Origin: Spirosoma fluviale
Lineage (GTDB): Bacteria; Bacteroidota; Bacteroidia; Cytophagales; Spirosomataceae
DNA length: 37,953 nt
NCBI GenBank assembly: GCA_945906915.1
Contig: CAMDSI010000003.1
Location: forward strand, 1-37,953
Reading direction: 5' to 3'
Position 1 is the stretch's first letter. Every line of letters starts with the position of its first letter. This document shows positions 9,515 to 17,305 of this stretch, one piece after another. Made by a program: the position numbers and the translations under genes. The notes under the pieces were generated by a model. It had not been told where the DNA came from, searched no databases, and was given only the letters and a program-made list of their open reading frames with translations.

Positions 9515-10060
9515 ATGTTTCCATCCTGGGATGCTGATCTATTTAAGTTCCTTAACGAGGCGCATCAGCCTTGGTTAGATGGACCTATGGAAATAATATC
9601 AGGCAAATTAACCTGGATTCCCTTATATACCCTCCTAATCTATTATTTGTATAAGGAATTTAGACAAGCTGCTTGGAAAGCGATTGTTTATTTACTTTCG
9701 ACTATTCTCTTGGCTGATCAATTCAGTTCTAGTCTACTAAAACCTCTCTTTAAGCGATTAAGACCCTGTCATGTAGAAGAATTCCAATCTTGGATACATT
9801 TACCTGATGGATGCGGGGGAATGTATGGATTTTGCTCCTCACATGCGGCTAATGCTTTTGCAGTAGCAATAGGCTTTTATTTGCTTACAAAAAACAAAGT
9901 TGCAGGTGCTGCCTTGGTACTTTGGGCTACACTAATATCTTACAGCCGAATCTATTTAGGCGCACATTATCCCTTAGATGTCATCGCGGGAGCTTTTGTG
10001 GGTGGAATAGGAGCGTGGCTACTATTTCAAGTTTTCTTGAGATTCACTAAAAAGTCGTAA
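9515..10060 (+). CDS. PAP2-family phosphatase
   Basis: 181 aa; KPLFKRLRPCH, GFCSSHAANAFA and SRIYLGAHYPLDVIAGA (three-part PAP2 signature). Confidence 0.9.
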   Translation: MFPSWDADLFKFLNEAHQPWLDGPMEIISGKLTWIPLYTLLIYYLYKEFRQAAWKAIVYLLSTILLADQFSSSLLKPLFKRLRPCHVEEFQSWIHLPDGCGGMYGFCSSHAANAFAVAIGFYLLTKNKVAGAALVLWATLISYSRIYLGAHYPLDVIAGAFVGGIGAWLLFQVFLRFTKKS

Positions 10061-11028
10061 GTATTGATTCCATCCGCGAAATCGTCGAGGGCTGGATGTT
10101 GACTTTGGCCAAAACCAATATCTAAACCCACTTTACATTGAATTTTTTCCTCGCGCTCCGCAATCCAGGCTAATAAAGAGGGTTCATCTGTATAGCGATG
10201 AACATATAAAACACCTACTGGAGAGACCAAATCCTCGTTTTCTGTCACTAAAAGATTCCCTAAATCAAAATGAGTAATCTGATTCAATAGGAACAGGGTT
10301 CTATGGTATTGAAAATTATTTGAATACTTTGAATGATCTAAAACCCACGTTTCCTTTGTCAATTCATCAAATAAAGGAGTTAAATCATACGCTGCAGGAA
10401 CAGCAATCGTAGAGACATTTCTGCAGCCTAAACCATAATAGGTAAATATATCCTGACCTAAACCTTTAAAATCACCCGCTGTTTCGTTTCCTTTCAAAAC
10501 TGCTAAGGAACTCCTATTCTTACGAATAATATGAGGAATGGTGGAGAAATAGTGGGCAAAATAAGCTCCTGAAAAATCACTACCCGTCGCAATAACAGCC
10601 TCCATGCCTTGTAAACGATCAATTACATAGATAGGGAAAGTACTGTCAAATGATTGCATCGCAGACACATACATTTGCATGAGGGCTTTATCTTGCGAAC
10701 TTAATTTCAAATGTGCTTCGTTTCCAGAGGCTAAAACCATTAACACATCATGCATTCCAACAGCGGGTAAATTACCGGCTAAAACAATTCCAACCTTTTT
10801 AGGGTGTGCCGTCTGTGAGGGATGCTTTACATAAAATTCCTCCCAGGCTTTGACAGAAAAAAACTGCTCTTCTATTGCCTGCATGGCATGCCGAACTAAT
10901 GATTCAGAAAACCAAGGATTCTCATTTATGGATCTTTCTATAAATAGTTCTATTTTATCTCGATTTGATTCATCCGTAAAATAGTTTTTCAAGAAAGTAA
11001 TAAGCTGTAAAAAGGAAGCCTTTGGCAT
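10027..11028 (-). CDS. Acyl-CoA reductase (LuxC family)
   Basis: 333 aa; GIVLAGNLPAVGMHDVLMVLASGNEAHLKLSSQD and GLGCRNVSTIAVP; overlaps PAP2 tail-to-tail by 34 bp. Confidence 0.8.
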   Translation of the reverse strand: MPKASFLQLITFLKNYFTDESNRDKIELFIERSINENPWFSESLVRHAMQAIEEQFFSVKAWEEFYVKHPSQTAHPKKVGIVLAGNLPAVGMHDVLMVLASGNEAHLKLSSQDKALMQMYVSAMQSFDSTFPIYVIDRLQGMEAVIATGSDFSGAYFAHYFSTIPHIIRKNRSSLAVLKGNETAGDFKGLGQDIFTYYGLGCRNVSTIAVPAAYDLTPLFDELTKETWVLDHSKYSNNFQYHRTLFLLNQITHFDLGNLLVTENEDLVSPVGVLYVHRYTDEPSLLAWIAEREEKIQCKVGLDIGFGQSQHPALDDFADGINTYDFLVNLKKT

Positions 11029-11140
11029 ATTATAATAGATTTTACCTCACAAAGGTCGAAAATTTTTCGGTTAGTCCATATAAATTATATACTATTCAAA
11101 TTTATGTTCGTAAATTGCACAATCAAACAAAAACATTGGT

Positions 11141-11488
11141 ATGGCGATTATCATAACTGACGAATGTATTAACTGTGGGGCTTGTGAACCAGAATGCCCT
11201 AACACAGCTATTTATGAAGGTGGTGTAGAATGGACTTGGGGCGGTGGCACTTCTTTAACAGAAATTGAATTAGAAGACGGATCTTCAATGGATGCAAAAA
11301 CTCCTGTGGAGCCCGTTTCAGAGGAATTTTATTATATCGTTCCAGATAAATGTACGGAGTGCACTGGTTTCCATGAGGAACCACAATGTGCTGCAGTTTG
11401 TCCAGTGGATTGCTGTGTGCCTGATCCTGATCGCGTAGAAGATACTGATACGTTACAAGCGAAGAAAGCATGGTTGCATGCGGAATAA
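11141..11488 (+). CDS. 2[4Fe-4S] ferredoxin with long inter-cluster insert
   Basis: 115 aa; [12 protein letters not shown] and [22 protein letters not shown]. Confidence 0.88.
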
Positions 11489-11512
11489 ATTTTAAGCTTT
11501 GCTTAAAATTTA
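11486..11512. repeat. Perfect AT-rich hairpin directly downstream of ferredoxin stop
   Basis: AAATTTTAAGC (11487-11497)-TTT-GCTTAAAATTT (11501-11511), plus an outer T-A pair. Confidence 0.6.
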
Positions 11513-11546
11513 AAGCATAAAGCATAGAGCATAAAGAATAGATTTA
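11512..11546 (+). repeat. Degenerate heptamer tandem array, left arm (AAAGCAT family)
   Basis: AAAGCAT AAAGCAT AGAGCAT AAAGAAT AGATTTA. Confidence 0.7.
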
Positions 11547-11547
11547 G

Positions 11548-11571
11548 AATGGGGCTTCGGCCCCATTTTTT
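11548..11571 (+). terminator. Rho-independent terminator with UUCG tetraloop (ferredoxin gene)
   Basis: AATGGGGC-TTCG-GCCCCATT followed by a T tract. Confidence 0.85.
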
Positions 11572-11594: not shown

Positions 11595-11608
11595 ATCGCC
11601 TAGGCGAT
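11595..11608. repeat. 14-bp perfect palindrome ATCGCCTAGGCGAT
   Basis: Direct read of 11595-11608. Confidence 0.6.
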
Positions 11609-11612
11609 TCGA

Positions 11613-11654
11613 GCTTTATGCTCTATGCTCTATGCTTTGTGCTTTATTCTTTAA
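11613..11654 (-). repeat. Degenerate heptamer tandem array, right arm, inverted relative to the left arm
   Basis: GCTTTAT GCTCTAT GCTCTAT GCTTTGT GCTTTAT TCTTTAA; reverse complement matches the left-arm units. Confidence 0.7.
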
Positions 11655-11701: not shown

Positions 11702-11845
11702 TTTTTCAAGATTTTAAAAATTAAGTTTGAATTTGAACTCATTTATTCTTCATTTTTGCAAAATCATTAAATATTAGTTTAATTTTTACCTCATTTTTAC
11801 TATTTTTTTGCAAAAAGATTAAAAATAGGTTAAATTTTTATCTTA
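11702..11845. repeat. Three tandem imperfect repeats with exact 52-bp period upstream of the porin-amt operon
   Basis: Units starting at 11702, 11754 and 11806 align without gaps; by hand, unit 2 vs 3 is about 32/40 and unit 1 vs 2 about 32/45. Units 2 and 3 start TTTTGCAAAA. Confidence 0.65.
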
Positions 11846-11849
11846 AATA

Positions 11850-11881
11850 TTTGGAATATATAAATTTAGCCTACATCTTTG
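11850..11881 (+). promoter_or_regulatory. Predicted promoter of the porin-amt operon (TTTG-N20-CATCTTTG)
   Basis: TTTG 11850-11853, 20-nt spacer, CATCTTTG 11874-11881 (one mismatch to TAnnTTTG), 41 nt upstream of ATG 11923. Confidence 0.5.
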
Positions 11882-11922
11882 ATTCGTAATCAAGCATTTT
11901 TTACTCTTAAACAATCTCCCAA

Positions 11923-13065
11923 ATGAAAAAAACTATCCTAACAGCCATTTTCGCCGCAACAGCATTTTGTGGATTTTCCCAAGAAAAAGAAGCCGAAGCT
12001 CCTAAGTTTTCTTTTTCGGGTTACATTGATTCATACTATATGTTGAATTTCAATAGCCCAACTAGTAGAAGCAATTTAGGTGCCTCTGGATACGAAAGAG
12101 CTTTCGATCAGAAGTCAAATCAATTTTCTTTAGGACTTGTTCAAACGAAATTTGGGTACGCAACTAAATCAGCTGATGTAGTTGTGGATTTAACATTTGG
12201 ACCTAACGCAGACTTAGGTCAGTACGGAAACGTTATCGGACCATTGGGTGCGGGAAAAGCAAGTACGGCTTTGGCCATCAAACAAGCTTACTTTAACTGG
12301 AAAGCAAGCGACAAATTTACCTTAACAGTAGGCCAATTCGGAACCCACATCGGATACGAAGTAATCGATGCTCCTATCAACTACAACTATTCACTTTCTA
12401 ACCTGTTCAATAATGGTCCGTTCTACCACATCGGAGCAAAAGCGAATTATGCCTTCTCTGACAAATTTTCTGCCATGGTTGGATTAGTCAACAATGTGGA
12501 TAATTTAAATGACAATAATGCTTCTAAAGGTTTTATCTATCAAGTTTTCACCTCGCCTGTAGCCGGATGGAACCTATATGTTAATGGAATCAGCTCGAAT
12601 GAATCTGCTCCCTTAGCTAGCGGTAAAGATGATACTGGCAGCTATAACTTATTGGATTTAACAACATCTTACCAAATCACTCCTAAGTATTTATTAGGCG
12701 TAAATGCAGCATACGGAACACAAACTGGTGATTTCCAAGGAGGCGGATCTGTAGGAAATAGCAAATCATGGGGTGGAGTGGCTTTATACTCTAACTATGC
12801 ATTCACTGATAAATTTAGCTTAGGTGGTCGCTACGAAGTATTCGATAACACATCTGGTGCTCGTGCTTTACGTAAAGCGGATGGTACTGGAACTGATGTT
12901 AGTTCTCTTACCCTAACGGCTACATTCACAGCTGCAGAAGGCCATTTATTGATCAAACCAGAATTACGCACTGATTCTTACCATTCCACTCAATTCGTAG
13001 ACGGTGATGGAAAAAATCAAAAATCTCAAACAACCTTAGGATTGCACTTCATCTATAAGTTTTAA
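11923..13065 (+). CDS. Outer-membrane beta-barrel porin (Bbp2/OmpL-like)
   Basis: 380 aa; signal peptide MKKTILTAIFAATAFCGFSQ; FSFSGYIDSYYMLNFN; alternating beta-strand pattern; C-terminal aromatic LHFIYKF. Confidence 0.8.
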   Translation: MKKTILTAIFAATAFCGFSQEKEAEAPKFSFSGYIDSYYMLNFNSPTSRSNLGASGYERAFDQKSNQFSLGLVQTKFGYATKSADVVVDLTFGPNADLGQYGNVIGPLGAGKASTALAIKQAYFNWKASDKFTLTVGQFGTHIGYEVIDAPINYNYSLSNLFNNGPFYHIGAKANYAFSDKFSAMVGLVNNVDNLNDNNASKGFIYQVFTSPVAGWNLYVNGISSNESAPLASGKDDTGSYNLLDLTTSYQITPKYLLGVNAAYGTQTGDFQGGGSVGNSKSWGGVALYSNYAFTDKFSLGGRYEVFDNTSGARALRKADGTGTDVSSLTLTATFTAAEGHLLIKPELRTDSYHSTQFVDGDGKNQKSQTTLGLHFIYKF

Positions 13066-13091: not shown

Positions 13092-14438
13092 ATGACGAAT
13101 CAAAAACCAACCTGGATCCCGTTATTAGTTTTATTAGGAATAGCAGTCCTTGCCTTATTCACCACTTCTGTTCCTGGAGCGATTCCTACAGAAGGTTTAG
13201 ACACAGGTGATACGGCCTGGATGATTGTAGCCTCTGGCTTAGTACTTTTAATGACACCTGGATTAGCGTATTTCTATGGTGGAATGGTTAATCACAAGAA
13301 TGTAATCTCTACTATGTTGCAATCTTTCATTGCCATGGGAGTAATTTCCGTGATTTGGATTGTATTCGGTTTCTCTTTAGCGTTTGGCGACTCTTTAGGT
13401 GGCTGGATCGGAGACCCTAGAAGTTTCTTTATGTTCAATGGTGTATTTGATCACAAATTATCTTTAGGATCTTCAGATCAATTAAAGTTCACGATTCCTT
13501 TTGCTTTGTTTGCTTTTTTCCAAATGAAGTTTGCAGTTATCACGCCAGCGCTTATCTCTGGAGCTTTAGCAGAACGTATAAACTTCCGTGCCTTCGTTTT
13601 ATTCATGGTCCTTTTCTGTATAGCGGTTTACGCTCCATTAGCACACTGGACATGGCATCCAGATGGATTCTTATTCAACTTAGGTGTATTGGATTTTGCT
13701 GGGGGAACAGTTGTTCACATGTCTGCTGGTTGGGCAGCATTAGCGGGTGCTTTATACTTACGTCGCCGTAAGTCTCATATCGAGTCTAATATCTTGCCTC
13801 CAGCTAACATTCCTTATGTATTATTAGGAACAGGTCTATTGTGGTTCGGATGGTTTGGTTTTAACGCAGGTTCTGCGGTAGGAGCAAATGGATTAGCTGT
13901 AACGGCTTTCGCAACTACACACGTAGCTGCCGCTGCTGCTGGTTTATCTTGGATCTTATTTGATGTAACTCGTGGCAAGAAAGTATCTGCCTTGGGTTTC
14001 TGTATCGGTGCGGTAGTAGGTTTAGTAGCTATTACACCAGCGTCAGGTTTCGTGACTGTTCCTGTAGCGATTTTCATTGGAGTGGTTGCTGCGATCGTTT
14101 CTAACATGGCCGCACACTGGAGAGCAAGCTCTAACTTAGATGATACATTAGACGTATTCGCTTGCCACGGTATTGGTGGAATGGTAGGTATGTTAATGAC
14201 TGGTATCTTCGCAACCTCTGCTGTTAACGCAGCAGTAGTAGAGCAAGGCTTGTTCTACGGAGAAACCTCTTTATTCTTAAAGCACTTATTAGCTTTAGCA
14301 ATCGTTTCGGCCTTTGCTTTTGGCGCATCTTATATCCTTTTAGTTATCACGGACAAAATTATTCCATTACGTGTAAACGAGGAAGAAGAAAGATTAGGTT
14401 TGGATATTTCTCAACACGACGAGTCGTTAGCAAAATAA
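13092..14438 (+). CDS. amtB: Ammonium transporter (Amt family)
   Basis: 448 aa; GLAYFYGGMVNHKNVISTMLQSF, HMSAGWAALAGALYLRRR, CHGIGGMVGMLMTGIFA (twin histidines). Confidence 0.95.
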   Translation: MTNQKPTWIPLLVLLGIAVLALFTTSVPGAIPTEGLDTGDTAWMIVASGLVLLMTPGLAYFYGGMVNHKNVISTMLQSFIAMGVISVIWIVFGFSLAFGDSLGGWIGDPRSFFMFNGVFDHKLSLGSSDQLKFTIPFALFAFFQMKFAVITPALISGALAERINFRAFVLFMVLFCIAVYAPLAHWTWHPDGFLFNLGVLDFAGGTVVHMSAGWAALAGALYLRRRKSHIESNILPPANIPYVLLGTGLLWFGWFGFNAGSAVGANGLAVTAFATTHVAAAAAGLSWILFDVTRGKKVSALGFCIGAVVGLVAITPASGFVTVPVAIFIGVVAAIVSNMAAHWRASSNLDDTLDVFACHGIGGMVGMLMTGIFATSAVNAAVVEQGLFYGETSLFLKHLLALAIVSAFAFGASYILLVITDKIIPLRVNEEEERLGLDISQHDESLAK

Positions 14439-14603: not shown

Positions 14604-14606
14604 CAT

Positions 14607-14661
14607 CTATATCTATAATCTATAATCTCTACTCTATAATCTATACTCTCTCTTCTATAAC
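14607..14661 (-). repeat. Heptamer tandem array, right arm, running into the mtaB 3' coding end
   Basis: CTATAT CTATAAT CTATAAT CTCTACT CTATAAT CTATACT CTCTCTT CTATAAC; mtaB stop (CTA on +) at 14641-14643. Confidence 0.75.
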
Positions 14662-17145: not shown

Positions 17146-17305
17146 TAGTTTTCATCAAAAAATCAAGCAAAAACAACCCACTTTTTAAGAAAACTCCAAA
17201 AATCCAAATTAAACTCAAAAAAATGAATCTTAATTTTCCTTTTTGTTCATTTTTTATCCCATGACAATTCGTTACTTTTACTTAAGAAAACAAATCAAAA
17301 AAAGA

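Follow-up and report, generated by a model that had tools for sequence, protein, structure and literature searches.

NtcA, the nitrogen-control activator of cyanobacteria, belongs to the Crp/Fnr family and binds the site GTA-N8-TAC upstream of ammonium-transporter and nitrite-reductase genes. In Escherichia coli, tandem CRP-dependent (class III) model promoters have 52 bp between sites at -41.5 and -93.5, and phage lambda repressor sites set five or six helical turns apart illustrate that identical dimers cooperate over integral turns. Here, we analysed a window of 37,953 nucleotides (the whole stretch of DNA under study) in which three dyad-symmetric sites stand upstream of the bbp2-amt operon, and compared them with these systems. 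Like NtcA sites, the sites are 14-bp dyads in which eight bases separate two defined triplets (GTT-N8-AAC in the array), and the target genes are similar; however, the half-site is GTT rather than GTA, there are three sites at an exact 52-bp spacing, and the nearest centre lies at about -50 instead of about -41.5, the likeness being one of site geometry. As at the tandem CRP promoters, the putative dimer sites are an integral number of helical turns apart, but the array has three sites, another motif and a Bacteroidota -33/-7 promoter, with its nearest site about one turn further from that promoter. NtrC enhancers are likewise phased dyads far upstream of nitrogen-assimilation genes, whereas the array promoter is of the sigma-A type and is without -24/-12 elements. 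With the lambda sites the array would share identical dimers over integral turns; the repressor arrangement was synthetic, whereas the one described here is natural and conserved at metabolic promoters. We give a probability of roughly three in four to the reading that three operators for a homodimer, all facing the same side of the helix, form a nitrogen-control module at bbp2-amt and nirBD, most likely an activating one.

Phased dyads in the bbp2-amt promoter region

The top-scoring repeat in the window, as reported by Tandem Repeats Finder, was located at 11714-11840, with a period of 52 bp, 2.4 copies, 77% matches and a score of 140. Between 11486 and 11922, the best self-match at lag 52 was 72 of 104 positions, compared with a mean of 48 and a maximum of 58 for 1,000 dinucleotide-preserving shuffles of the same region, each of which was allowed any lag from 20 to 80; none of the 1,000 attained the window's value. 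A first-pass annotation of this DNA had described three 52-bp units, starting at 11702, 11754 and 11806 ahead of bbp2-amt, and had proposed the comparison with shuffled sequence; both analyses bear the units out. It was also right that units 2 and 3 begin with TTTTGCAAAA and that about 5 bp separate the end of the array from the -33 TTTG. Its hand-counted identities (about 80% between units 2 and 3, about 70% between units 1 and 2) were too high, since ungapped alignment gave 67% for both pairs and 62% for units 1 and 3.

Across Aquirufa species, the repeat consists of three 18-bp imperfect dyads with the core RGTTWAAWWTTWAACY (Table 1). The repeated segment in relatives is AGGTTTAATTTTTAACCT and variants of it, an imperfect palindrome around RGTTWAAWWTTWAACY; the window's own sites are weaker than this genus consensus, with 10 to 12 of 18 dyad matches (12 of 18 in operator 1). 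Operator 2 is the best conserved of the three in Aquirufa, with 73% orthologous identity over the 18-bp core, and its centre has the highest dyad symmetry of the region (z = 3.8, against 2.8 and 2.2 for the other two operators). The palindrome TTTTGCAAAA noted earlier is present, but the RGTTWAAWWTTWAACY dyad matters most, and TTTTGCAAAA lies midway between operators. A second, weaker dyad, TTTTTGCAAAA, also occurs about midway between operators, and the one near -68 gives a peak at -67.5/-68 in both Aquirufa and the Arcicella group.

The array is followed by a promoter with the hallmarks of Bacteroidota sigma-A promoters, namely a -33 TTTG and a -7 TAnnTTTG at a spacing of about 20 nt, both conserved. 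The start site was inferred to lie near 11886 by setting TAnnTTTG at -12 to -5, its mapped position in Flavobacterium psychrophilum (PMC9723704). On this numbering, the element AAGCATT(TAT) would fall near +7 of the transcript. We also observed AAGCATTTAT downstream of the nirB -7 box, for example in the nirB promoter of genome G020 (contig C21, locus L316), and in the non-coding DNA of G007, a complete congeneric genome used for whole-genome counts, TTTG-N10/11-AAGCATTT was found at bbp2-amt only.

Table 1. Features of the bbp2-amt promoter region and operon, in window coordinates; operators are putative.
Feature	Position	Strand	Remarks
Operator 1, AAGTTTGAATTTGAACTC	11723..11740	.	Centre about -154.5 from the inferred start site
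TTTTGCAAAA, about midway between operators 1 and 2	11754..11763	.	TTTTG[CT] at -124 in 24/32 Aquirufa
Operator 2, TAGTTTAATTTTTACCTC (AGGTTTAATTTTTAACCT in relatives)	11775..11792	.	Centre about -102.5
TTTTGCAAAA, about midway between operators 2 and 3	11806..11815	.	TTTTG[CT] at -72 in 17/32 Aquirufa
Operator 3, AGGTTAAATTTTTATCTT	11827..11844	.	Centre about -50.5; 5 bp upstream of the -33 box
-33 element TTTG	11850..11853	+	[TC]TTG 20 nt upstream of the -7 octamer in 56/72 bbp2-amt promoters
-7 element CATCTTTG (consensus TAnnTTTG)	11874..11881	+	Aligned in 72 relatives
Initial transcribed element AAGCATT	11892..11898	+	14-15 nt after the -7 TTTG in 44/72 bbp2-amt promoters
bbp2, putative beta-barrel porin-2 (PF07642)	11923..13065	+	Pfam E = 5e-78
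amt, ammonium transporter (PF00909)	13092..14438	+	Pfam E = 3.3e-116; 26 bp after bbp2

The bbp2-amt neighbourhood is retained in related loci, where the conserved neighbours are genes for a LuxC-like acyl-CoA reductase and a ferredoxin. This pair (window 10027-11488) was conserved in 13 of 15 representative Spirosomaceae loci; the LuxC Pfam match in the window was below threshold. Other repeats were seen nearby. Long inverted arms made of the 7-bp words TAAAGCA / TGCTTTA (11503-11550 and 11607-11654) flank a hairpin after the ferredoxin gene; similar CTTTGTGCTTT words number 21 in G007, 18 of them non-coding, and form a short-word intergenic repeat found genus-wide. Between amt and the next gene (radical-SAM), a degenerate (ATCTATA)n tract of about eight units occupies 14605-14660.

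Conservation of the array among relatives

The window is part of an Aquirufa-like genome (Spirosomaceae, Cytophagales), from a freshwater bacterium. The sequences preceding bbp2 in about 30 genomes of the same genus and in other Spirosomaceae were aligned on the -7 TTTG, and both the three sites and their 52-bp spacing were kept in close relatives. The repeat singled out by the first-pass annotation is real, and it is better conserved than that reading could know. Half-sites of the form A[GA]GTT stood exactly at -155, -103 and -51 from the -7 TTTG in 17, 27 and 26 of 32 Aquirufa, respectively, and the locally best profile site fell exactly on these offsets in 28 (operator 1), 31 (operator 2) and all 32 (operator 3). 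The spacing between operators was exactly 52 bp in 28/32 and 31/32 Aquirufa, the distance from the array to the conserved -33/-7 promoter was fixed in the genus, and position 2 of the dyad was G in 93 of 96 sites. A dyad-symmetric site is thus repeated at a fixed spacing and in a fixed phase with the promoter, as is characteristic of operator arrays.

Lag 52 ranked first among 105 lags in 23 of 32 single Aquirufa promoters, and it was also the top lag in the pooled sets, both within Aquirufa (z = 4.9) and outside it (z = 3.9). When a profile derived from Aquirufa alone was applied to 13 Arcicella/Flectobacillus-type promoters, -51, -155 and -103 were the top three of 250 positions. The three-site layout was present as well in two MAGs (loci L103 and L114) with a different gene neighbourhood. 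In more distant genera the letters drift and lag 52 is still raised, with a median rank of 11/105 across 27 promoters. Different units were 53% alike within Aquirufa species and 51% alike between them, and the identity of the same unit across species was 63% for unit 2 and 66% for unit 3, which shows that the array is old and has not been homogenised.

Another inverted motif, ATATTTGGC...GCCAAATAT, was observed upstream of bbp2 in Spirosoma, Arcicella and Flectobacillus (L112-L140, L094-L127; L116, for instance, has AATAATATTTGGCATATTGATTGATTTGCCAAATATG). It precedes the -7 TTTG by about 135-175 bp, and Aquirufa is without the motif in that form.

The array at nirBD and its reach across genomes

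From bbp2-amt promoters alone we built a 111-position profile covering the two units nearest the promoter, and we ran it on 38 genomes of the genus. A nirB gene was found in six of these 38, the window's own genome being without it, and in five of the six the profile gave a further match upstream of nirB, with E values of 7e-6 to 2e-4 in G033, G020 and G024 and weak matches in G019 and G031. By Pfam domains, the matched gene is of the NirB type (Pyr_redox_2, Fer2_BFD, NIR_SIR) and is followed by nirD (Rieske_2), with a SUMT-type tetrapyrrole methylase gene in the divergent direction. In G020, G024 and G033, a matrix derived from the amt promoters placed the best three-site score at 52-bp spacing on -155/-103/-51 from the -7 TTTG of nirB, the anchor in G033 being one base off. 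None of 1,000 shuffles attained these scores, and 52 bp was the best of the spacings from 36 to 68, with none close. R2, a broader profile that takes in the nirB promoters of these three genomes, matched directly upstream of nirB in G019, G031 and G035; the nirB sites of the A. antheringensis-type genomes are marginal matches (E = 1e-3 to 0.3), known from profile scores.

The same operator-like site recurs at a second, functionally related promoter, that of nirBD. We regard this recurrence as the decisive support for the proposed nitrogen-control module. It also upholds, on stronger grounds than those first given, the earlier suggestion of a phased operator array at a nitrogen-uptake operon, but not the link to the GSII/GSIII genes that had been drawn with it: the letters of the match GAGTTTAATTT (17206-17216) are real, but they are not conserved in the intergenic region of 23 relatives. 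With no conserved operator in that region in the 23 relatives, the GSII/GSIII promoters were rejected as further targets.

R2 was searched over 25 genomes. Beyond the genus, the genome-wide best match preceded nirB in G040 (9.0 Mb; by 20-147 bp) and in G093 (3.8 Mb; by 20-137 bp), and it preceded amt in G051 (by 87-173 bp), all three genomes being from other families. Matches were also found at bbp2 in G060 and G064, and weaker ones 96-350 bp upstream of nirB in G070, G073 and G060. These matches outside the genus are marginal (E = 1e-3 to 0.3) and are known from location and profile score, location being the telling part; in most non-Aquirufa genomes of the search, no match was found near nirB, amt or bbp2. 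Two further array-profile matches were observed. In G073, from a genus other than Aquirufa, a strong match (C11:870384-870497, E = 2.9e-7) adjoined no bbp2, nirB or ammonium transporter gene when positions were compared, and it is possibly a further target of the array's putative regulator. The best match in G070 (C22:142116-142208) preceded a second ammonium transporter gene by about 0.7 kb.

Within G007 the array stood alone. A whole-genome two-site scan at lag 52 gave bbp2-amt a score of 50.0, against 14.8 for the runner-up, and found no second array. Nor was a single-site regulon detected in G007, where profile counts equalled permuted-column controls (15 vs 13.7 at a score of at least 12); genome-wide counts of exact single-site patterns equalled the reversed control. 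Because single-site counts are at background, only arrays are informative. The second ammonium transporter operon of G007, amt-glnK, had no array in the stretch that was read, and together with the GSII/GSIII result this indicates that the array does not mark a general switch for all nitrogen genes.

Proposed mechanism, alternatives and the candidate regulator

We propose that the array comprises three promoter-proximal operators for a single, putative homodimeric transcription factor, each operator being an imperfect dyad of 16-18 bp. Centres 52 bp apart correspond to five helical turns at 10.4 bp, and three dimers would accordingly sit on one DNA face at about -50, -102 and -154. The nearest dimer would border the upstream side of the -33 box, in a promoter of the sigma-A type, where it could touch RNA polymerase, and the upstream dimers may contribute cooperative binding or extra contacts. 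The module would govern nitrogen acquisition through bbp2-amt and, where present, the assimilatory nitrite reductase nirBD, most likely by activating both under nitrogen scarcity; that nitrogen status would be the signal is suggested by what the two targets do, namely take up ammonium and reduce nitrite.

The alternative that survives best, although we consider it unlikely, is that the three operators bind a repressor, with cooperative dimers in a looped or stacked complex blocking the promoter when ammonium is plentiful. Dyads at integral-turn spacing suit cooperative repressors and activators alike, operator 3 is only 5 bp from the -33 box, and the computed evidence is equal for both; however, no operator overlaps the -33 or the -7 box, two of the sites are at -102 and -154, which are positions more usual for activators, and the -7 boxes are often imperfect (as is CATCTTTG in the window), like those of promoters that need help.

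A much smaller probability attaches to intrinsically curved DNA with phased A/T tracts, or a nucleoid-protein site, acting without a sequence-specific regulator. The region is very AT-rich, lags 41, 71, 92 and 104, near helical multiples, are also somewhat raised, and lag 51 reaches z = 2.0 when the intergenic DNA of G007 is pooled. Yet lag 52 is far above the other helical multiples, the AA/TT phasing power is ordinary, with 21% of G007 intergenic regions reaching at least the window's value, and the conserved letters within the dyad are G, C and T, among them the near-invariant G at position 2.

Slightly less probable again is that the dyads are enhancer sites for a sigma-54 activator of the NtrC type. 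Phased palindromes upstream of nitrogen genes do resemble NtrC enhancers, and rpoN was found in all four Aquirufa genomes searched, but a GG-N10-GC (-24/-12) signature occurs in only 4 of 72 promoters between -90 and +30, whereas the TTTG/TAnnTTTG type with 20-nt spacing occurs in 56 of the 72. In F. psychrophilum, the genes targeted by sigma-54 are those for chaperones, the envelope and gliding (PMC9723704). That the array is a functionless repeat, left by neutral tandem duplication or in decay, would fit the moderate identity of the tandem units but is scarcely credible given a spacing and promoter phase kept in about 30 species and other genera and the same layout at the unrelated operon nirBD. 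A structured RNA element was rejected as well, because the window had no Rfam match and the conserved promoter comes only after the array.

As for the factor that would bind the three operators, no conserved regulator gene was found beside bbp2-amt in the loci compared. The GTT-N8-AAC geometry fits a Crp/Fnr-family site, but a search for Crp/Fnr proteins in G007 gave three matches, none by nitrogen genes: two clear Crp/Fnr genes, which adjoin cbb3-oxidase and TauE-type transporter genes, and a weakest match that is a LacI-type protein. In the open-access literature, our searches turned up neither a transcription factor acting on amt, glutamine synthetase or nirBD in Bacteroidota nor any NtrC-, NtcA-, GlnR- or AmtR-type control of these genes in the phylum, and, as that literature alone was covered, this absence is weak evidence of novelty. 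On balance, we lean toward the view that Spirosomaceae, and perhaps the wider Cytophagales, control nitrogen genes with a regulator not yet described, which binds as a rigid array of three dimers at bbp2-amt and nirBD.

The regulation of nitrogen uptake in Bacteroidota is apparently poorly described, and a defined operator with a rigid spacing rule and two target operons offers a direct means of isolating the regulator. Because genera share the strict three-site geometry at 52 bp, the array also lends itself naturally to testing helical phasing at a promoter that is not of the E. coli type. If the proposed module is true, it would represent a nitrogen-control regulon for Bacteroidota, spanning ammonium uptake (bbp2-amt) and nitrite reduction (nirBD).
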